Below are positions 12,678-28,474 of a stretch of 33,588 bases of DNA, in pieces. Numbering within the stretch: position 1 is the first letter of the stretch; the number at the start of each line of letters is the position of its first letter. This DNA comes from an uncultured Clostridia bacterium (lineage in GTDB: Bacteria; Bacillota; Clostridia; TANB77; CAG-508), in the NCBI GenBank assembly GCA_944388675.1, contig CALXJR010000004.1, positions 1 to 33,588 of the forward strand, written 5' to 3'. The notes beneath the pieces are model-generated. The model was not told the DNA's origin. It made no database searches and was given only the letters and a program-made list of their open reading frames with translations. Made by a program: the position numbers and the translations under genes.

Positions 12678-13415
12678 ATGGCAAAAGAAGAAAATAGAAT
12701 AATTGTTGAACATGTATATAAATCTTTTGATATATACATGGACAAGGCAAATAGCTTAAAAGAGAAATTACTATTCTGGAATAGAAATAAAAAAGAAAAA
12801 AGAGAAGTCTTAAAAGATATTAATCTTACAATAAAAAATGGAGAAGCTGTTGGACTTATTGGCGTAAATGGTAGTGGTAAATCTACCTTATTAAAATTAA
12901 TGACAAAAATAATTTACCCAAATAAAGGAAAAATAACTACAAATGGTAAATTAACATCTCTTTTAGAGCTAGGTGCAGGATTTCATCCAGACTTTTCTGG
13001 TAGGGAAAATATATATTTTAATGCCTCGATTTTTGGTTTAACAAAAAAACAAATAGATGAAAGATTAGATAATATTATAGAGTTTTCAGAGCTTGGAGCA
13101 TATATAGATAACCCTGTAAGAACATATTCATCAGGAATGTATATGAGACTTGCTTTTGCAGTTGCAATAAATGTAGATGCAGATATTTTATTAGTAGATG
13201 AGGTGCTAGCAGTAGGAGATCAACATTTTCAGGAAAAATGTATTGCGAAAATGAAAGAGTTAAAAGAACAAGGAAAAACAATGGTATTTGTAACTCATAG
13301 TTTAGGAACTGTAAAAGATTTTTGTAATAGAGCTATATGGTTAAATCAAGGCGAAATACAAATGGATGGAGAACCAGAACCAGTAATAGATGCTTATTTA
13401 AAAGCTACAACTTAG
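12678..13415 (+). CDS. Polysaccharide ABC exporter ATP-binding subunit (Wzt/TagH-like, short form)
   Basis: Energises export of a lipid-linked glycan with the permease encoded next. The 245 residues contain Walker A GVNGSGKST (62-70), the Q-loop region with SLLELGAGFHPDFSGREN typical of the Wzt/TagH/RfbE subfamily, the signature YSSGM (150-154), Walker B ILLVDE (170-175) and the H-loop His207. It lacks the long C-terminal carbohydrate-binding or extracellular domain of long Wzt and B. subtilis TagH, so it is the short type. SD AAAGGTG precedes the ATG by eight bases. Confidence 0.93.
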   Translation: MAKEENRIIVEHVYKSFDIYMDKANSLKEKLLFWNRNKKEKREVLKDINLTIKNGEAVGLIGVNGSGKSTLLKLMTKIIYPNKGKITTNGKLTSLLELGAGFHPDFSGRENIYFNASIFGLTKKQIDERLDNIIEFSELGAYIDNPVRTYSSGMYMRLAFAVAINVDADILLVDEVLAVGDQHFQEKCIAKMKELKEQGKTMVFVTHSLGTVKDFCNRAIWLNQGEIQMDGEPEPVIDAYLKATT

Positions 13416-13439: not shown

Positions 13440-14213
13440 ATGAATTTAGTAAAAGATTTATATAATTATAGAGAATTATTAAAAACAAATATAAAAAAGG
13501 ATGTTGGTGGAAAATATAAAAATTCTGTACTAGGTGTATTATGGTCTTTTATTAATCCACTTTTGCAAATAGCTGTATATGCACTAGTATTCCAGGTTAT
13601 ATTAAAAAGTGATATAGATAATTATACAGTTTACCTATGCTGTGGATTAATACCTTGGCAATATTTTTCATCTGTAGTGCTAAGAGGTGCTGCAACAATT
13701 ATTGATAATGGTAATATAATTAAAAAAGTGTATTTTCCAAGAGAAATTTTACCAATTTCTGTAGTAACGAGCGAGGGAGTAAACTTTTTAATATCAACTA
13801 TAATCATATTAGGTTTTGTAATTTTTGGGGGAATAGGGCTTTCTTGGAATGTACTTTGGTATTTTCTAATATTTGCAATTCAATTTATAGTATCAATTGG
13901 AGTATCTTTCATTGTTTCAAGTTTAACTGTATATTTTAGAGACTTGCAGCATTTATTAGGTATATTTATTCAATTGTTATTTTATGCAACACCTATAGTA
14001 TATGCAATTAGTTCAGTACCAGCTGGTTTACAATGGATTGTAAAAATAAATCCAATGTCTTATTTAATAGAAGGATATAGAGCAATATTTTACAATAAAA
14101 CAATGCCAGACTTCCAAGAGTTATTAATAGCTTTAGCAATGGGTATAGTACTTTGTATAATTGGTTATTTTATATTTAAAAAGCTAGAGAAAAAATTTGC
14201 TGAAGAATTATAA
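13440..14213 (+). CDS. Polysaccharide ABC exporter permease (Wzm/TagG-like, ABC-2 family)
   Basis: 257 residues with about six transmembrane segments. An N-terminal amphipathic stretch holds KDVGGKYKNSVLGVLWSFINPLL, split here as KDVGGKYKNS and VLGVLWSFINP, a strong ABC-2 exporter signature. SSLTVYFRDLQHLLGI and NPMSYLIEGYRAIFY are also typical. It forms the channel for the ATPase encoded 24 bases upstream and moves undecaprenyl-linked polysaccharide or teichoic acid outward. The ATPase gene comes first here, the reverse of the usual TagG-TagH or Wzm-Wzt order. SD is AAAGGA. Confidence 0.92.
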   Translation: MNLVKDLYNYRELLKTNIKKDVGGKYKNSVLGVLWSFINPLLQIAVYALVFQVILKSDIDNYTVYLCCGLIPWQYFSSVVLRGAATIIDNGNIIKKVYFPREILPISVVTSEGVNFLISTIIILGFVIFGGIGLSWNVLWYFLIFAIQFIVSIGVSFIVSSLTVYFRDLQHLLGIFIQLLFYATPIVYAISSVPAGLQWIVKINPMSYLIEGYRAIFYNKTMPDFQELLIALAMGIVLCIIGYFIFKKLEKKFAEEL

Positions 14214-14247
14214 ACTTATTCTAGAAATAGAAAGGATTGATTAAAAT

Positions 14248-16509
14248 ATGGATAAATCTGAAGAAATGTTATATTTTAATTTTAATAAAAAAATAACAGA
14301 TATTAAGAAAAACTCTTTAGATATTGATAATGCTTTAATACACATTATTACTACATATTCTGGAAAGAATATTAATTTTCAGCAAACAATAAATTCAGTT
14401 ATTAATCAAACTTTTTTATATTGGAAATGGACTATTATATGCACAAATGATGAATTAGATTTTAATTTACAAGATGATAATAGAATAAATACAATAAAAC
14501 AAAATAAAGATGTATGTGACATTAGGAATGGATTAATTAATAATGGCAAATATGAATATGTTTTTATTCTGGACGAAAATAGTATATTAGATGAAACTAT
14601 GTTAGAGTGCTCATATTGGACTATGCAAACAAATCCAGATGCAAGTTGGTGTTATTCTAATTATGTTATTAATAACAGTAGTTTAGGTAATGCACTATTT
14701 ATGTCAGAAGATGAAAAAAATGCAAATATTGTAAGTAAATCATATTTAATTAGAAAAAATGATTTGTTACAAGTTGGAGGTTATGAAAAAAAGCTAGAAA
14801 AAACCAATATAGATTGGCTATTATTTTTAAAATTATTAAGTGAAAATAAGTATCCTGTAAAAATGGATTTTTATGGAAGCTGGGATAATTTAAAAGAAGA
14901 TGTTAAAACAGATGAAATTGTAAAAGAAAGTAAAAAAATAGAAAACAAATTAATGGGAATTAACTACCCAGTTGGTAGTGATTATTGGTTTGATACACAG
15001 CCTTTTGAATTAGAGTGGGATAAAAACTTAGAAAATACTAATAAAACAAATTTATTATTCATATTTCCATGGTTTAAAGTTGGTGGAGCAGATAAATTTA
15101 ATTTTGATTTAATTTCAAACTTAGATAAAGAAAAGTACAATATTACAATAATTACAACTGAGCCATGCAATTATATTTGGAGACAAAAGTTTGAAGATTA
15201 TGCAGAGATATTTGATTTAACATCATTCTTGCACAGGAAATATTGGGCACCATTTATTCATTATATAATTAAAACTAGAAATATTAATTTAGTTATGAAT
15301 TCAAATAGTTTTTATGGATATTATGCTATTCCTTGGCTAAAAAGCAAGTTTCCTAAAGTAATTTTTACAGATTATTTGCATGCAGTAAATTGGAATTGGA
15401 GACATGGGGAATACCCAATTGACTCTACAGCAATTTCTCGCCTGTTAGATAAAACTTTTGTGTCTAATAAAGCACTAGATACAATAATGCAAGAAAAAAT
15501 GGGAAGAACAAAATCTAATACAAAAGTTGTTTATATAGGTGTAGACACAAATAAATTTAATATAAATAATGAAGAAATTAAATTAGATGAAGATTTAATG
15601 AAATATAGAGAAAAATATGAAGGTAAGAAAGTAATATTATTTTGTGCTAGAATTTCAGATGAAAAAAGACCATTGTTAATGGTAAAAATAATGGAAGAAT
15701 TATGTAAAAGAAGAAAAGATGTAGTTCTTTTTGTAGTAGGAGATGGAAACTTACTTCAAAATATGAAGGAACTTGCAAAAGAGCTTAATTTGCAAGATGA
15801 TATTATCTTTTTCGGAATGAAAGAAGAGGTTAGACCTTTCTACAAAGAGGCAAATGTTTTAGTTAATTGCTCAATAAGAGAAGGAATACCACTTACAACT
15901 TATGAGGCTTTATCTATGTCTGTTCCAATAGTTACAGGAGATGTAGGTGGACAAAGTGAAATAATAGATAACTCTTGTGGAATAATAGTAAAAAACATTC
16001 AAAATGTTGCAGATGGTGAAAAAAATAAAGAATTTTTACCTGAAGAAATAAAAATATATTCAGATGCAATAGAAAAGATTTTAGACAATAGCGAATATGA
16101 GCAAATGAGAATAAATTGTAGAAAAAGAATAAAAGACAATTTTACAATTAATAAAATGGTTAGTGATATTGAGACAGAATTTGATACTTTAATAAAAGAA
16201 GGTTCAAAAATTCCTATAGATTTAATAAATAATGAAGAATTTTATAAAAACCACTTAGTATTATTTAATGAGTATGATAGAAGATATTATAATAGTGCAA
16301 AAGGTGGCATAATACCTGAAAGAGAATATAGCAATGAAGAAATTTTAAAACAAACATTAGATAAAGCACAAAACCAAATTAAAGATTATGAAGAACAACT
16401 AAAACAAAAAAATTATTTAATAGAAGAAAAAGAAAAAGAATTAAAAAACATAATAAGTAGCAAAAGATGGAGATATACTCAAAAACTTCTTAAATTTTTT
16501 AATAAATAA
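14248..16509 (+). CDS. Two-domain glycosyltransferase: degenerate GT2 domain plus intact GT4 domain
   Basis: 753 residues. Residues about 28-220 align with a GT2 domain (NSVINQTF, LIRK, GGY, YPV, FYG in register with the next gene), but the donor-binding DDGS is replaced by ICTNDE (64-69) and the metal-binding DxD by LDENS (108-112), so this half is probably inactive. Residues about 270-660 are an intact GT4 domain, starting at IFPWFKVGGADKF and including ARISDEKRPLLMV, VVGDGNLLQNM and an E-x7-E motif (EGIPLTTYE, Glu545 and Glu553). The C-terminus is a coiled coil (about 690-735) ending in the SKRWRYTQKLL motif common in surface-glycan transferases. SD is AAAGGA. Confidence 0.82.
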   Translation: MDKSEEMLYFNFNKKITDIKKNSLDIDNALIHIITTYSGKNINFQQTINSVINQTFLYWKWTIICTNDELDFNLQDDNRINTIKQNKDVCDIRNGLINNGKYEYVFILDENSILDETMLECSYWTMQTNPDASWCYSNYVINNSSLGNALFMSEDEKNANIVSKSYLIRKNDLLQVGGYEKKLEKTNIDWLLFLKLLSENKYPVKMDFYGSWDNLKEDVKTDEIVKESKKIENKLMGINYPVGSDYWFDTQPFELEWDKNLENTNKTNLLFIFPWFKVGGADKFNFDLISNLDKEKYNITIITTEPCNYIWRQKFEDYAEIFDLTSFLHRKYWAPFIHYIIKTRNINLVMNSNSFYGYYAIPWLKSKFPKVIFTDYLHAVNWNWRHGEYPIDSTAISRLLDKTFVSNKALDTIMQEKMGRTKSNTKVVYIGVDTNKFNINNEEIKLDEDLMKYREKYEGKKVILFCARISDEKRPLLMVKIMEELCKRRKDVVLFVVGDGNLLQNMKELAKELNLQDDIIFFGMKEEVRPFYKEANVLVNCSIREGIPLTTYEALSMSVPIVTGDVGGQSEIIDNSCGIIVKNIQNVADGEKNKEFLPEEIKIYSDAIEKILDNSEYEQMRINCRKRIKDNFTINKMVSDIETEFDTLIKEGSKIPIDLINNEEFYKNHLVLFNEYDRRYYNSAKGGIIPEREYSNEEILKQTLDKAQNQIKDYEEQLKQKNYLIEEKEKELKNIISSKRWRYTQKLLKFFNK

Positions 16510-16535
16510 AACGGTAAATTGAAGAGGAAAAATTA

Positions 16536-17822
16536 ATGGTAGATGAAAATATCTTTTTTGATTATGAAAAAAGACCTGGATTAAAACAAAAAAATAAATT
16601 TATAAAAGAGCAAATTAAACCACTAGTTAGCATTATTACTTCTTATTATAATTCTAAAGAGTTTTTAAAACAAACAGTAAACTCAGTAATAAATCAGACA
16701 TTTCCTTATTGGGAATGGATTATAGTGGATGATGGAAGCACCCAAAAAGAAACTTATGAAATTTTAAAAAGTTTAGAAGCTAAAGACTCTAGAATAAAAG
16801 TATATCATAAACAAAATGAGGGACTTGCAAAAGGTAGAGATTATGCAATAAAATATTCTACGACAAAATATATTTTACCTTTAGATGCTGATGATTTAAT
16901 AGATCCAACATATATAGAAACATTATATTTTACATTAGAGACTAATAAAGAAGCAAGTTTTGCATTTACAAATTCTGTTGGGTTTGGAAAATATATTTAT
17001 TTATCTAATCCGGATTTTGATTCTGAGAGAATGAAAACAGATAATCATATAACTGCAACTTCACTTATTAGAAAAGAAAAAATTATTGAACTTGGTGGTT
17101 ATGGTTTGGCAAAAAGATATGTAAATGAAGATTGGCATTTATGGCTAAGGATGCTAGCTAAAGGTTACTACCCAGTACAAGTTTCATTTTATGGATTTTG
17201 GTATAGAAGAAGAAAAATAAGCTTATTAAGTGAAATAAATGATGAGAAGAAAAAAGAAAATATTTTACGATTACAGGACTTGAAAGCTGAAGCTGACAAA
17301 ATAACAAAAAAGGTTAATGCAAAAATTTATCCACAAGATGATAAGACTAATATAGAATATAATAAACTAGATTTTACAGAAGATATAAAACCAATAGACA
17401 ATGGAGATAATGTACTATATATTATTCCATGGCTAAAATCAGATGAAAAACTATTTAAGAAAATTAAAGAAGAAAGTAAAAATAAAAATGTTATAATTTT
17501 AACAACTAAATATTTAGGCTATGTTAATAGACAAAAATTAGAGCAATATTCAACAATTTTTGATTTAACCACATTTTTAGATAAAAAATATTGGTTAGGA
17601 TTTATAGAATATATTCTTAATTCAAGAAAAGTAATTAAAATAGTTGTTGATAAAACACAAGATAAAAAAATACTAAATTTTGTTTCAAATAAAAATATTG
17701 AAACAAATCTTATTGAGTATAAAGATGATGAAAAAGAATACAAAAGATTGATAAAAAGATATAACTTTAATCAAAGCATAATTGGGAGAATATTAAGAAA
17801 AATAAGAAGATCTTTTATATGA
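16536..17822 (+). CDS. GT2 glycosyltransferase with a truncated GT4-like C-terminal half
   Basis: 428 residues. The GT2 domain is complete: VSIITSYYNS, DDGST (65-69), DADD (117-120), EDW (198-200) and the FYGFWYRRR segment. Residues about 290-395 (VLYIIPWLK, ILTTKYLGYVNRQKLEQYS, IFDLTTFLDKKYWLGFIEYI) match the N-terminal Rossmann half of the GT4 domain in the preceding protein. The GG loop is lost (KSDEK in place of KVGGA) and the whole donor-binding C-terminal half is missing. So the GT2 part should be active and the GT4 part a relic or docking module. SD GAAGAGG precedes the ATG. Confidence 0.82.
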   Translation: MVDENIFFDYEKRPGLKQKNKFIKEQIKPLVSIITSYYNSKEFLKQTVNSVINQTFPYWEWIIVDDGSTQKETYEILKSLEAKDSRIKVYHKQNEGLAKGRDYAIKYSTTKYILPLDADDLIDPTYIETLYFTLETNKEASFAFTNSVGFGKYIYLSNPDFDSERMKTDNHITATSLIRKEKIIELGGYGLAKRYVNEDWHLWLRMLAKGYYPVQVSFYGFWYRRRKISLLSEINDEKKKENILRLQDLKAEADKITKKVNAKIYPQDDKTNIEYNKLDFTEDIKPIDNGDNVLYIIPWLKSDEKLFKKIKEESKNKNVIILTTKYLGYVNRQKLEQYSTIFDLTTFLDKKYWLGFIEYILNSRKVIKIVVDKTQDKKILNFVSNKNIETNLIEYKDDEKEYKRLIKRYNFNQSIIGRILRKIRRSFI

Positions 17823-17835
17823 AAGGATGGATAAT

Positions 17836-20034
17836 ATGAAAATATGGTTTTTAACAGGTGAATTTGCTCCAGACTTTGGTGGAGGTATTGGTACATATGT
17901 AGAAAACTGTGCAAAAATGTTTGCCCAGGCAGGTGATGATGTAACAGTAATTGTTAGAAGTATTAATGGAGATAAAACAGAAAAAGCAAAAGAAGGGTAT
18001 AGAATTGTAAGATTCCAGCAAGGTGAAGGAGAATATTATCAATATTTAGGATATGATAATGCCTTAGCATATCAATATTATGATGTAATATCAAAAATGA
18101 TTGATAAATATGGAAAACCAGATATCTTAGAAATGCAAGAATATAATGCATATGGTCAATATATAATTCAAAGTAAATTAATGCTTAATGAAAAATTTAA
18201 AGATATTCCACTTGTTGTACATCTACATACTCCAAGTTTTGAAACATTAAGAATTAACCAATTTAATACATATGAATTACCATTTTATTGGATAGGAGAA
18301 ATGGAAAAATTCTGTATTAAAGGAGCAGATGCTTTAGTTTGCCCAAGCCAGTTTTTAGCCGATAAATTACAATATTTAGTAAAAGATAAAATAAAGGTTA
18401 TTAATTTACCATTTGACATAGATAAGGATGAGCTTAAAAAATATGAAGAAGCAGGAATAGAAAAGCCAGAGAAAAAGACTATTCTATATTTTGGTAGAAC
18501 AGAATATAGAAAAGGCGTTGTGCAAATGCTAAAAGGTGCAGAAAAGCTTTGGAAGAAAGGTTTAGACTTTAAAATAAAAATAATTGGTGGAGACACAAAA
18601 TTAGAATCTAAAGGAACCTTTGTTGGAGAAGATATAAAGAAAAAATATGCAAAATATATAGAAAGTGGAAATCTAGAAATGCTAAACTCTATTCCACATT
18701 TAGAGTTAATTCCACATATTCTTTCTGCAACAGCTGTAACAATTCCATCATTATATGAAAATTTCCCAAATACATGTATTTATGCAATGTGGCTTGGAAA
18801 ACCAGTACTAGTTTCTAAGAGTGGTGGACAAGCTGAAATGGTAAAAGATTCTGGTAAAAATGGATTAATATTTGACTGGGATAAAGAAGGAGACTTTGAA
18901 GAAAAATTAGAACAGCTTCTTAATATGTCTGATGAAGAACTAGAGGCTATGGGTAATAATGCAAAAGAAAGAATCCATAAATTATGCAATATGGAAGATA
19001 ATATTAAGAAAAGAAGAGAATTTTTTGAAGAAGTAATTAAAAATAAAAAAGAAAAGACAGAATTTCCATTTGTAGAAGAAATGCCTAAAGATGAATATGT
19101 TACAAAATATGATGGTGAAAAAAATTTATTATCAGTTGTAATTCCTTATTATAATTTAGGAAGTACACTTCCAGAAACAATCGAAAGTATTAAAAATTCA
19201 GATTATAAAAATTATGAGATAGTAGTTGTAAATGATGGAAGTACAGATGAGGAAAGTATAAAAGTTTTAGATAATTACAAAGATGATGAAAAAGTAAGAA
19301 TTATAAATATAGAAAATAAAGGCTTAGCAAATGCAAGAAATGTTGGAGCAAAAGAAGCCAAAGGTGAGTTTGTAGCATTTTTAGATGCGGATGATAAAAT
19401 AGATAAAACATTTTACACAAAAGCAATTAATATTCTGCACAAATACAGTAATGTATCTTATGTATATAGTTGGGTGCAATATTTTGAAGGAAGCACAGCT
19501 GTTTGGCCAACATTTAATGTTCATATTCCATATTTACTTTGTGCAAATATGCTTGCAGCATTTGTAGTAATTAGAAAAAATGATTTTCTAAACTTTGGAC
19601 AAAATAGAATTAAGATGGAATATGGAATGGAAGATTATGATGGCTGGGTAAGCTTAGCAGAGCATGGATATTTAGGAGTATCTATACCTGAAAAACTAAA
19701 TCTTTATAGAGTAAGAAAAGATTCAATGTCTAGACAATTTAATAAAAAGATGAGAATTTATCTATATGAAACATCAATACAAGGACATGAAAAATTATTT
19801 GAAAAATATTCTAAAGATGTATATATGCTATTATTAACTAATGGACAACCATATTACTGGAACAATCCTACAACGCCAGTATATGTGCCAACATCTGGAG
19901 AGCCACAACCAGTTGATGAAAGAGTTCTAAAAATAGAAAGATTCTTAAACTCTTTCCCTGGAAGAGTTTTAAGAAAAATATATAGAGGTTTAAGAAAAAT
20001 TAAACATGCTATTATAAAGGAGCAGTCAAATTGA
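17836..20034 (+). CDS. Two-domain glycosyltransferase: N-terminal GT4, C-terminal GT2
   Basis: 732 residues. The start at 17836 is preferred over an in-frame ATG at 17827 because AAAGGATGG sits at proper distance only from 17836. Residues 1-395 are GT4 (WFLTGEFAPDFGGGIGTYVE at the N-terminus, LYFGRTEYRKGV). In the usual E-x7-E site the second Glu appears to be Tyr (ENFPNTCIY, 308-316). Residues about 430-650 are GT2 with SVVIPYYNLGSTLPETI, NDGSTDEE (466-473), NKGLANARN and DADD (517-520). The domain order is the opposite of the two preceding genes. It may add two consecutive sugars. Its stop overlaps the TTG start of the next frame. Confidence 0.88.
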   Translation: MKIWFLTGEFAPDFGGGIGTYVENCAKMFAQAGDDVTVIVRSINGDKTEKAKEGYRIVRFQQGEGEYYQYLGYDNALAYQYYDVISKMIDKYGKPDILEMQEYNAYGQYIIQSKLMLNEKFKDIPLVVHLHTPSFETLRINQFNTYELPFYWIGEMEKFCIKGADALVCPSQFLADKLQYLVKDKIKVINLPFDIDKDELKKYEEAGIEKPEKKTILYFGRTEYRKGVVQMLKGAEKLWKKGLDFKIKIIGGDTKLESKGTFVGEDIKKKYAKYIESGNLEMLNSIPHLELIPHILSATAVTIPSLYENFPNTCIYAMWLGKPVLVSKSGGQAEMVKDSGKNGLIFDWDKEGDFEEKLEQLLNMSDEELEAMGNNAKERIHKLCNMEDNIKKRREFFEEVIKNKKEKTEFPFVEEMPKDEYVTKYDGEKNLLSVVIPYYNLGSTLPETIESIKNSDYKNYEIVVVNDGSTDEESIKVLDNYKDDEKVRIINIENKGLANARNVGAKEAKGEFVAFLDADDKIDKTFYTKAINILHKYSNVSYVYSWVQYFEGSTAVWPTFNVHIPYLLCANMLAAFVVIRKNDFLNFGQNRIKMEYGMEDYDGWVSLAEHGYLGVSIPEKLNLYRVRKDSMSRQFNKKMRIYLYETSIQGHEKLFEKYSKDVYMLLLTNGQPYYWNNPTTPVYVPTSGEPQPVDERVLKIERFLNSFPGRVLRKIYRGLRKIKHAIIKEQSN

Positions 20035-20433: not shown

Positions 20434-21759
20434 ATGGCTCTAATATTTCTTGCTTGGCTACCATATTTTTTAAGATACTATCCTGGTCTGCTTACCTCAG
20501 ATTCAATAGTACAATTATCACAAGCAATAGGAATATCAGAACTTACTAACCATCATCCAATTTTTCATACAGGAATAATTGCACTTTTTGTAAATATAGG
20601 ACAAGCAATTTTTGGTAATATAAATGCAGGTGTAGCCTTTTATACAATAGCACAAATGCTAATTATGTCTGGGATATTTGCGTTTATATTAAGATACTTA
20701 AGTAAAAAACAAGTGCCAGTTATAGTTAGAGTTATAACATTATTATATTACATGTTCTATCCAATAAATGCATTATTTTCTGTAACTATGTGGAAAGACG
20801 TACTATTTGCAGGAATACTTCCAATATTCATCATTTTATGTGTGGATTTAATAACAAATACAGAAGAATTTTTTAGCAAAAAGAAAAATATTGTAAGTTA
20901 TATAATTGTGTCTTTATTAGTATTTTTTGCAAGAAATAATGGAATGTATGTAGTGGTTTTAACAATGCCATTCATAATTATCGTACTAAGAAAATATTGG
21001 AAAAAAGTCATACCTTTGTTTGTTAGCATAATACTTTTATATGCAATAATCAAAACATCAGTATTTGCTATATTAGATGTAAAAAATGGTTCAGTTGCAG
21101 AAATGCTTTCAATTCCACTGCAACAAATTGCAAGAGTTGTAAAATATCATGGAGAAGAATTAGATGAAGAAACAATAAACAAAATAAATAGTTTCTTCAA
21201 TTGTGAAAATATAGGAGAAAAATATAATCCAATTATATCTGATCCAGTTAAAGCAGAGTTAAATGTGGATTATTTTAACGATAATAAAAGTGAATTTATA
21301 AGTTTATGGTTTAATCTATTAACAAGATATTTTAAAGACTATGTAGAATCATTTATTTCAAACTCATATGGATATTATTATCCTGAAGCAAGCTATTGGG
21401 TTGCAAATAGAACAATGGAACCAAATAATTTGGGAGTAGAGCAAACACCTTTAATTAATGGAAATATAGTATCTATAGTAGATTCATTAATTGAAAGAAG
21501 AGATATTCCAATCTTATATATGTGCTTTAGTATAGGAACAGCATTTTGGCTTATTGTAATTTGTTTGGGCTATAAAATATTAAATAAAGAGTATAAATTT
21601 ATATTAGTTTATTTACCAATATTTATATTGTGGCTTACAATAGTTGCATCACCAGTATTTTGTGAATATAGATATGCATATTCTATGTTTACATCTTTAC
21701 CAATATATATATCTTTAAATTTTATTAAAAATAAGAAAGATAATAGGAAGGAAGAGTAA
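20434..21759 (+). CDS. Polytopic membrane protein, probable lipid-linked-sugar glycosyltransferase (DUF6020-like), frameshifted upstream
   Basis: The position given is the first ATG of the frame, but this ATG has no SD and the open frame reaches back to 20113; the native gene very probably starts at TTG 20031. The 441 visible residues have about nine to ten hydrophobic segments. An extracytoplasmic-side motif, YYPGLLTSDS with NHHPIFHT shortly after, is the pattern of an Asp-containing first loop in GT-C-type membrane glycosyltransferases. A soluble loop of about 100 residues precedes the last helices. It may glycosylate or modify the polysaccharide on the outer face. The DUF6020 assignment is from memory of the motif and tentative. 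Confidence 0.65.
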   Translation: MALIFLAWLPYFLRYYPGLLTSDSIVQLSQAIGISELTNHHPIFHTGIIALFVNIGQAIFGNINAGVAFYTIAQMLIMSGIFAFILRYLSKKQVPVIVRVITLLYYMFYPINALFSVTMWKDVLFAGILPIFIILCVDLITNTEEFFSKKKNIVSYIIVSLLVFFARNNGMYVVVLTMPFIIIVLRKYWKKVIPLFVSIILLYAIIKTSVFAILDVKNGSVAEMLSIPLQQIARVVKYHGEELDEETINKINSFFNCENIGEKYNPIISDPVKAELNVDYFNDNKSEFISLWFNLLTRYFKDYVESFISNSYGYYYPEASYWVANRTMEPNNLGVEQTPLINGNIVSIVDSLIERRDIPILYMCFSIGTAFWLIVICLGYKILNKEYKFILVYLPIFILWLTIVASPVFCEYRYAYSMFTSLPIYISLNFIKNKKDNRKEE

Positions 21760-26090: not shown

Positions 26091-27440
26091 ATGAGTATCA
26101 AACCATATTTGATTCAATTTTTAAAATACATATTAGTATTTATAATATTAATATGTATATATCTTATTACTTTAACTTTAAGTGGATTAATCCCATCAGA
26201 ATGGATGAAAGATAATGTAACAAAAAGTTCTGAAGTTTTAAATGAAGAAGGAGAAAAAAAGTTTATAGATTTGGGCTATAAACAAGAATCTGTATTTTTA
26301 TTTACAGATGCATTAATGATTAATACAGCTTATTCTGTAGACTCAAACACTCCACTTGCAAGTTCAATGCTTGCAAGAAAAAATTATATACCAGGCCAAA
26401 CAACAGAAATTTACATAGATAGCCAATATAATCTAGGAGCTTCACCAAACTATATAAATAAATCAAATGGAGATTTATATCAAACTAAAGAATTATATGG
26501 ACTAATGCATGGAGAAAACATTACACAATCATTTGAATATGCAAGATACTGGCATGGTTATTTAGTAATTTTAAGACCTCTATTAGCAATCATTAGTTAT
26601 TCTGGAATAAGGATAGTTTTATTAATTGTAGCAATAGCTTTAATAGGAGTTTTATTATTTCTAATAGGAAAGAAAATTAACTTACAAACTGCAGTATTCT
26701 TCTTAATTGGTTTACTTGCAATCCATATATTCTATGTAACACAATCAATGAATGAAAGTATTGTTATTTTGTTTGGACTTGCTTCATCAATTTTTATATT
26801 ACTAAAAAAAGATACAAAAAAGAACATTGGTATAAACTTTTTCGTTATTGGTTCAGTAACAATATTTATTGACTTATTAACAGAACCACTAATTACTTTA
26901 GGACTTCCATTAATAATATATTTACTATTAATGCAAAAACAAGGAAGTACACTAAAAGAAAACATTATAGACTTTTTTAAAATCTGTATTGCATGGGCAA
27001 TTGGCTATGGATTAACTTGGTTTGCAAAATGGATTTTAGTTTCATTATTATACAACAGACCAATATTACAAATAGCACTAGAGCAAGCAAGATTTAGGAG
27101 TGGGGAAGGAAGTAGTAATAGTTATACTCTTGGATTTGTAGTAGATAGAAACTTTAATTTTTTATCTATTACAATAATGCAGGCTTTAACTTTATTTATT
27201 TTAATTTATGCAATGATTAAAATAATAGTTAATATTAAAAAGAAAATTAATATAAAAGATAATTTGTTACAATGCATACCATTTATTTTAACAGCACTTT
27301 TGCCAATTGTATGGTATTTTGCTTTAAGACAACACTCAGTAATACATGCATTTTTTACATACAGAATTTTAATTATAACTTTAATTAGTTTAATGATATT
27401 ACCAGATATATTATTTAAAAAGGAGAAAGAAAAAACATGA
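26091..27440 (+). CDS. Polytopic membrane protein of unknown function, possibly a GT-C-like glycosyltransferase
   Basis: 449 residues. An N-terminal transmembrane helix (about 10-32) is followed by an outside domain of about 130 residues with TDALMINTAYS and YARYWHGYLVILRPLLA, then roughly nine hydrophobic segments. The layout (large first loop, Asp-containing segment, many helices) recalls membrane glycosyltransferases, but no diagnostic motif is recognised, so the function is not claimed. It starts 22 bases after ruvB with SD AGAGGT, and its TGA overlaps the ATG of the next gene by four bases (ATGA). Confidence 0.75.
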   Translation: MSIKPYLIQFLKYILVFIILICIYLITLTLSGLIPSEWMKDNVTKSSEVLNEEGEKKFIDLGYKQESVFLFTDALMINTAYSVDSNTPLASSMLARKNYIPGQTTEIYIDSQYNLGASPNYINKSNGDLYQTKELYGLMHGENITQSFEYARYWHGYLVILRPLLAIISYSGIRIVLLIVAIALIGVLLFLIGKKINLQTAVFFLIGLLAIHIFYVTQSMNESIVILFGLASSIFILLKKDTKKNIGINFFVIGSVTIFIDLLTEPLITLGLPLIIYLLLMQKQGSTLKENIIDFFKICIAWAIGYGLTWFAKWILVSLLYNRPILQIALEQARFRSGEGSSNSYTLGFVVDRNFNFLSITIMQALTLFILIYAMIKIIVNIKKKINIKDNLLQCIPFILTALLPIVWYFALRQHSVIHAFFTYRILIITLISLMILPDILFKKEKEKT

Positions 27441-28474
27441 AATTATTAATGCACACATGTTGCGCACCATGTAGTGTGTTTTGTATAGATTCATTAAGAG
27501 AAGAGAAAATAGAGCCTACTGTGTATTGGTATAATCCTAACATACATCCTTATGAAGAATATGCTAAAAGAAGAGATTGCTTAAAAGAATATTGTAAAAG
27601 CATTAAAGTAAATGCAATATTTGATGATGAATACGGATTAGATAATTTTTGTAAAGAAGCTGCAGGAGATATAAAAGCAAGATGCGTTAATTATTGTTAT
27701 CCAGTAAGATTAAGGAAAACCTGTGAATATGCAAAGGCAAATGGATATGATGCAGTAACAACAACATTGTTATATAGCATATATCAAAACCATAATTTTA
27801 TAAAAAACTATTTAGAAAAATTATGCAAGGAATATGGTTTAGAATTTGTATATAGAGATTTTAGAGTAGGATTTTGGAAAGGACAACAAAAAGCTCATGA
27901 TTTAGGATTATATATGCAAAAGTATTGTGGATGTATTTTTTCTTTGGAAGATAAGGAGCTAAATAGAAATGTGCAAAAACCAAAGCTTCCAGAAAATTTT
28001 AAGTTTTTACCTGCAATAAAAATGATAAATATAAAAAAGGAGAAAAATAATAAAGAAAAGTATTTGGATTTATTGTTGGAAGCAGACCCAAGTAAAGAAA
28101 TGATTGAAAAATATTTACAAGATGGTGAAATGTTTGTACTAACTTATAAAGAAGAACCTGCTTGTATTGCAGTTACTATAAAACTAAATGAAAACGCAAT
28201 TGAACTAAAGAATTTAGTAACAAAGGAAAAATATAGAGGAAAAGGTTATGCTAAAAGAATGATTAAATATTTAGCTGATAATTATAAAACTAAATATAAT
28301 AAAATGATAGTAGGGACAACAGAGAATAATATACCTTTTTATGTAAAACAAGGCTTTGATAATTATGAAAAAACAATTAAAAACTTTTTTATAGATAATT
28401 ATAAAAAAGACCTCTATGATGGGTCATTACATTGTACAGATCTTTACTATTATTCAAGAAATTTGAAAAAATAG
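27437..28474 (+). CDS. Epoxyqueuosine reductase QueH fused to a GNAT acetyltransferase domain
   Basis: 345 residues. Residues 1-200 are QueH (formerly DUF208): adjacent Cys8-Cys9 in MHTCCAPCSVFC, YNPNIHPYEEYAKRR, RCVNYCYPVRLRKT and YCGCIFSLED, the cysteines and motifs expected for iron-sulfur cluster binding and reduction of epoxyqueuosine to queuosine in tRNA. The usual SPYQ reads SIYQ. Residues about 210-345 form a GNAT domain with the acetyl-CoA loop KYRGKGYAKRMIKYL and IPFYVKQGFDNY. QueH is normally about 180-220 residues, so this is a fusion. The target of the acetyltransferase is unknown. The start overlaps the preceding stop (ATGA). Confidence 0.85.
   Translation: MKLLMHTCCAPCSVFCIDSLREEKIEPTVYWYNPNIHPYEEYAKRRDCLKEYCKSIKVNAIFDDEYGLDNFCKEAAGDIKARCVNYCYPVRLRKTCEYAKANGYDAVTTTLLYSIYQNHNFIKNYLEKLCKEYGLEFVYRDFRVGFWKGQQKAHDLGLYMQKYCGCIFSLEDKELNRNVQKPKLPENFKFLPAIKMINIKKEKNNKEKYLDLLLEADPSKEMIEKYLQDGEMFVLTYKEEPACIAVTIKLNENAIELKNLVTKEKYRGKGYAKRMIKYLADNYKTKYNKMIVGTTENNIPFYVKQGFDNYEKTIKNFFIDNYKKDLYDGSLHCTDLYYYSRNLKK

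Follow-up and report, generated by a model that had tools for sequence, protein, structure and literature searches.

Two adjacent genes in the stretch of DNA analysed here (the window, 33,588 nucleotides from an uncultured Clostridia bacterium) encode related GT proteins, each of which appears to have kept one of two catalytic domains and to have lost the other. In the reading that we prefer, to which we would give a probability of roughly 65%, these proteins, here called A and B, belong as two modules to a cytoplasmic GT assembly for a polysaccharide exported by a Wzm/Wzt pair; they would come from separate branches of a family of bifunctional GT2–GT4 enzymes and form an exchangeable cassette, with A responsible for the GT4 step and B for the GT2 step. 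The explanation is built on the homology of the two proteins, motif loss, predicted folds, the structure of the cassette, its exchange, phylogeny and purifying selection within the family; from these we infer the activities, the order of events and docking. An assembly artefact was ruled out, because the gene order A, B and a third gene for a GT4–GT2 protein recurs in a second genome, G032 (JAAWKA010000014.1). The arrangement is real and well defined, and it is evolutionarily instructive, although it is a variant of known modular GT organisation and not a new type of system.

Domain organisation of A and B

Gene A lies at 14248–16509 and gene B at 16536–17822, both on the forward strand, and they encode proteins of 753 and 428 amino acids, respectively. 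Both are open reading frames with their modules in the same order, as the sequence-only reading had proposed. BLASTP aligns residues 5–346 of A with residues 3–366 of B (E=6e-50, 33% identity over 378 amino acids), a region that spans the GT2 domain and the start of GT4, and the shared segments on which that reading relied (NSVINQTF, LIRK, GGY, FYG, FPWFK/IPWLK and IFDLT[ST]FL) fall in register in this alignment.

The N-terminal half of A (14332–14886, forward strand) is a GT2-like domain with a GT-A fold, modelled by AlphaFold with pLDDT values mostly of 77–97, from which the GT2 motifs are missing. CTNDE (14440–14454, forward strand) stands where intact homologues have DDGST or NDGST, and LDENS (14569–14583, forward strand) where they have LD[AS]DD; in the motif census as a whole, IVDDGST is replaced by IICTN--, LDADD by LDENS, NEDW by NIDW and WYRRR by WDNLK. 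A Pfam scan found no GT2 domain in A (no match to PF00535) and detected GT4 (PF00534, E=8e-29). The features taken to mark an active GT2 enzyme, namely a DDGS-like motif, DxD, the ED base and the YR loop, are therefore not present together in A, and the claim that its GT2 catalytic residues have been lost while a full GT4 half is kept is borne out, with the refinement that the first D of DxDD and the D of ED are still there. It could be argued that this half is a changed enzyme, or a domain that binds sugar or acceptor, rather than a dead one, given that the predicted fold is retained and certain GT2 positions remain conserved; but none of DDGST, DxDD, the E of ED and WYR survives unchanged, and in the G032 homologue the DxDD motif is wholly gone, first Asp included, so that we regard this as very unlikely.

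The GT4 (GT-B) domain of A (15043–16203, forward strand) is complete. It carries GGADKF, R468/K473 and E545-x7-E553, with G279, G280, R468, K473, E545 and E553 as the invariant positions, and by sequence and predicted fold it has all that is expected of an active GT4 enzyme (two Rossmann lobes, the GG loop, the Arg/Lys pair and E-x7-E). The model of the whole protein is confident (pLDDT 87.5). A fold search with it gave matches dominated by GT4, among them BshA-type GT4 structures (BaBshA, 3mbo: Z 25.6, rmsd 3.1, 354 residues aligned). The protein ends in long helices that form a coiled-coil-like tail (16333–16503, forward strand), which differs from the tail of the intact homologues.

B shows the converse pattern. 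Its GT2 domain (16623–17213, forward strand) is complete, with IVDDGST, LDADD, NEDW and WYRRR intact; the Pfam scan detected GT2 (PF00535, E=1e-30) and no GT4 domain, and both the motifs and the GT-A fold are those of an active GT2 enzyme. The model is again confident (pLDDT 87.6), and the matches found with it are dominated by the GT2 domain, which resembles K4CP, RmlT, TarP and other GT2 enzymes (the best being K4CP, 2z86: Z 24.9, rmsd 2.7, 236 residues aligned). What follows (17406–17723, forward strand) is, from the model and BLASTP, a stub of the GT4 acceptor lobe with five strands, placed by AlphaFold at residues 292–297, 318–323, 340–343, 366–372 and 389–393, and then a basic C-terminal helix (17730–17816, forward strand, also from the model). 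B has neither the GG loop nor the donor lobe nor E-x7-E, and does not have the features of an active GT4 enzyme. The loss of the GG loop and the donor half had been recognized from the sequence; it can be added that the alignment of B stops within the acceptor lobe, the last part of which is missing as well. Neither A nor B combines two intact catalytic domains in its chain, and as judged from their sequences A would now specialize in the GT4 reaction and B in the GT2 reaction.

Intact enzymes and other variants

Homologues were found in about 50 of 195 genomes in a family-wide search, mostly as one gene of about 750–790 codons with both domains intact. A class-level search with A returned 8 of 391 genomes at E<=1e-40, which indicates that most of the family belongs to this order and that its other members are scattered; intact copies outside the order occur in Alicyclobacillus mengziensis, a Lachnospiraceae MAG and a Roseburia MAG. 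The sequence-only reading had suggested a search for homologues that carry both intact domains in a single gene; these are thus numerous and extend beyond the order. Wzt, wzm and one long gene were the pattern in 88 fully read loci (a count of loci and not of genomes, since some genomes were entered twice, in which the long genes were only partly checked individually for both motifs), and the intact bifunctional enzyme is the usual occupant of the position beside wzt/wzm. Such single-gene proteins (for example at loci L080 and L084, L212 in Alicyclobacillus and L219 in Roseburia) have the domains and domain order of A and B, and mostly the same Wzt/Wzm neighbourhood, but differ in that both sites are intact in one polypeptide and, in the loci examined, in having no GT4–GT2 companion.

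A second group of proteins, in which the GT2 half is dead and the GT4 half to which it is fused is intact, comprises those of genomes G135, G161, G198, G210, G212 and G216 and of loci L131, L133, L134, L140, L174–L177, L179 and L181. This group, referred to below as clade 2, keeps EDW, does not lie in wzt/wzm loci as far as its context was read, and is found without any B; its dead GT2 half is conserved across genomes from two families. In an uncultured Anaerofilum (L223:7920-12795), an intact bifunctional GT2–GT4 protein of 767 amino acids is followed by one of 856 amino acids in which GT2 is joined by a short stub resembling GT4 and by a polysaccharide pyruvyl transferase domain.

Three other arrangements should be mentioned. 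At L171:8001-10293 the bifunctional gene consists of two overlapping open reading frames (256 and 543 amino acids) that break just past the WYR of GT2, and is either frameshifted or split. Two intact bifunctional GT2–GT4 genes stand in tandem in a Eubacterium MAG (L216:7953-12557), and two lie about 3 kb apart in A. mengziensis (L212:2687-10322).

Loci that contain B

In the window, A is preceded by a Wzt/TagH-like exporter ATPase (12678–13415, forward strand; NF010065, E=1e-70) and a Wzm-like permease (13440–14213, forward strand; NF050109, E=5e-24), both scoring below the model cut-off; with such a pair beside GT genes, this is an ABC-transporter-dependent polysaccharide locus. B is followed by a GT4–GT2 protein of 735 amino acids (17827–20034, forward strand), the domain order of which is the reverse of that in the A/B family and which is strictly linked to B in the loci read.

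B-type genes occur in 13 genomes (the window, G021, G032, G042, G072, G099, G140, G297, G298, G316, G337, G346 and G733), with a frame break in those of G072, G099 and G733. A GT4–GT2 protein of 718–739 amino acids is encoded directly 3' of B in all 13, and in the loci examined no single bifunctional gene has one as its neighbour. The position before B is more variable, being occupied by an unrelated small GT4 (about 335–350 amino acids) in 10 of the 13 and by an A-type gene in two (the window and G032), while G140 has no GT gene there.

The B homologues of G099 (L078:8843-10181) and G733 (L230:8552-9896, minus strand), two species that differ by about 10–14% at the nucleotide level, have in common a +1 frame break that directly follows NDGST; no other lesions were seen, and dN/dS is about 0.13–0.29 on either side of the break. 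A translational frameshift or a shared lesion is possible. Left out of the B-type count was a short open reading frame in G083 (L095:2237-3622), which the end of the contig truncates and which has an adapter-like tail: the contig ends in ...LLYTSPSPRDRG, which resembles a translated sequencing adapter, and the length of this B-like frame is an artefact.

Exchange of the A–B block

The congeneric species G072 has exporter and GT4–GT2 proteins that are 97% identical to those of the window, but between them it has a small GT4 and a B-type gene (B'), and A is absent. DNA identity between the two is 85–93% in wzm, 59–79% within B and 87–97% in the GT4–GT2 gene (95–97% at its start), and the GT4–GT2 protein tree pairs the window with G072, whereas the B tree does not. 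The jump in identity and the discordance of the trees together identify A and B as an exchanged block, which runs from the end of wzm to the boundary of B and the GT4–GT2 gene (14214–17870, the right edge lying between about 17722 and 17872). Exchange of a GT module between sister gut Clostridia would plausibly alter their surface polysaccharide.

Phylogeny and origin

A and its G032 copy, the only two A-type genes among the genomes searched, are sisters (100/100), and their next nearest kin are intact bifunctional enzymes, among which the pair nests with support of 98/98 for the shared region and 99.5/99 for the full GT4. The ten complete B-type genes form one clade (100/100) outside the intact clade that holds A. 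It should be noted that the long branches of the GT2 half of A and of the stub of B may mislead the trees.

The sequence-only reading derives A and B from a tandem duplication of one bifunctional gene, with reciprocal decay of the two copies afterwards. The adjacency of A and B, their equal domain order and their strong homology are what would be expected from this; moreover, both of the Bs that are linked to an A branch early in the B clade, so that the two may be old partners. Forcing A and B into one clade costs 29.9 log-likelihood units on the full-length alignment (p-AU 0.004), a value that leans on the donor lobe of A, which B does not have, and to which domain mosaicism could matter; on the shared region only (342 columns) the cost is 8.9 units, and monophyly is not rejected (p-AU 0.198). 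A tree of the stub region places B weakly beside A (49.6/29), from 78 columns that are too few to place B. A single local duplication is thus rejected on the full-length alignment, and the placement of A among intact bifunctionals and the occurrence of most Bs without A also speak against it; we hold it to be improbable. The alignments are best read as placing the origins of A and B on separate branches of the bifunctional family, rather than in the copying and later splitting of a single gene. The part of the earlier proposal that stands is the descent from a bifunctional GT2–GT4 ancestor, supported by the many intact single-gene homologues, and the specialization of both proteins as far as their sequences tell.

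A single origin of GT2 death was likewise rejected (p-AU 0.0002), and from the alignments GT2 death happened independently at least twice. Degenerate halves of separate origin at other loci had been named in advance as evidence against the duplication model, and this holds in part: clade 2 is one such case, and the GT2-intact, GT4-truncated protein at L223 is another.

Selection on the inactive halves

In low-divergence pairs of B-type genes, dN/dS is 0.13–0.39 for the stub against 0.04–0.13 for GT2, and in the closer pairs of clade 2 it is 0.04–0.24 for the dead GT2 against 0.03–0.10 for GT4. The intact enzymes show stronger conservation of GT2 (0.04–0.10) than of GT4 (0.07–0.18). The values for A (0.39 for the dead GT2 and 0.31 for GT4) come from a single divergent pair with dS about 1 and are uninformative alone. 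It follows that inactive halves evolve faster than active ones yet remain constrained, and the suggestion that each protein keeps its inactive half agrees with purifying selection on such halves within the family.

The inactive halves might nevertheless be mere relics, kept through fusion to a useful domain and perhaps for its folding. A dN/dS for the stub that is several-fold above that of the catalytic half, and the long stems of the stub and the dead GT2 in the trees, would suit such an account; dN/dS clearly below 1 in low-divergence pairs and the conservation of the dead GT2 of clade 2 in two families do not, and we think it rather unlikely. Repeated, independent loss of active sites with the fold under selection suggests a non-catalytic role for these halves, and purifying selection on them makes docking plausible, to the extent that sequence data allow. 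A natural series within one family (intact fusion, GT2-dead, GT4-truncated and replaced partner) offers a test bed for non-catalytic GT domains.

Proposed mechanism and known systems

The ancestral unit would have been a bifunctional GT2–GT4 enzyme that adds two sugars, one by GT2 (inverting) and one by GT4 (retaining). If the glycan needs one step of each kind, these would be supplied by the fused enzyme in most genomes, by a small GT4 with B in others and by A with B in the window. There, B would perform the GT2 step, its GT4 half having shrunk to a small Rossmann stub, and A, with its catalytically dead GT2 half, the GT4 step, filling the slot that an unrelated small GT4 holds in most loci with B. 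We propose that the presence of B made the GT2 site of A redundant and that this site then decayed. The two proteins, drawn from different branches of the family, would move as an exchangeable cassette, and the retained non-catalytic halves would most likely be structural or docking elements.

Among the structures that best match the GT2 domain of B are the GT2-type domains of two bifunctional polymerases, K4 chondroitin polymerase (2z86) and Pasteurella heparosan synthase 2 (8vh7). In K4CP both domains are GT-A and active, and there is no GT4 half. Pairs of the GtfA–GtfB type, which act in the glycosylation of serine-rich repeat adhesins, combine a catalytic GT with an inactive GT homologue; there the inactive partner is a whole protein, whereas in A and B inactivation is reciprocal and by domain.

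No paper on this GT2–GT4 family came up in a literature search for GT domains that are inactive or degenerate; the most relevant papers were PMC11231755 and PMC12269835. In the part of PMC11231755 used here, GT modules of the Klebsiella pathways for ABC-exported glycans are variably spread over single- and multi-module, interacting proteins, and the loci were likely assembled from different sources; our mechanism is read from this known biology together with the position of the locus. The O-antigen polymerases described there (WbbB, WbdA/WbdD and the O4 and O7 proteins) show the modular spread and the interaction of separate modules that we propose for A and B, but they belong to a different gene family, and that part of the source describes no separate module with a dead copy of its partner's domain.

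A stronger proposal makes A and B an obligate heterodimer, joined by docking of the inactive halves, in which the bifunctional enzyme is restored in trans. In its favour, the models of both inactive halves are confident, purifying selection still acts on halves of this kind in the family, and ABC-dependent O-antigen systems are known to include split polymerases whose modules interact (PMC11231755). Most B-type proteins, however, are paired with an unrelated GT4 that has no GT2-like half, and clade 2 exists without any B; docking through these halves is evidently unneeded in those cases, which argues against an obligatory A–B dock, and we consider the heterodimer unlikely. The more specific version, in which A would dock by its dead GT2, and B by its GT4 stub, on the live counterpart in the other protein to give a bifunctional polymerase, and a swap of partner (A or the small GT4) would change the glycan, is slightly less likely still.

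Other features of the window

Further downstream, the window encodes a DUF6020 membrane protein of 441 amino acids (20434–21759); its homologues in several related loci have about 590–610, so that the copy in the window may be truncated. At 27437–28474, a QueH epoxyqueuosine reductase is fused to a GNAT acetyltransferase domain.
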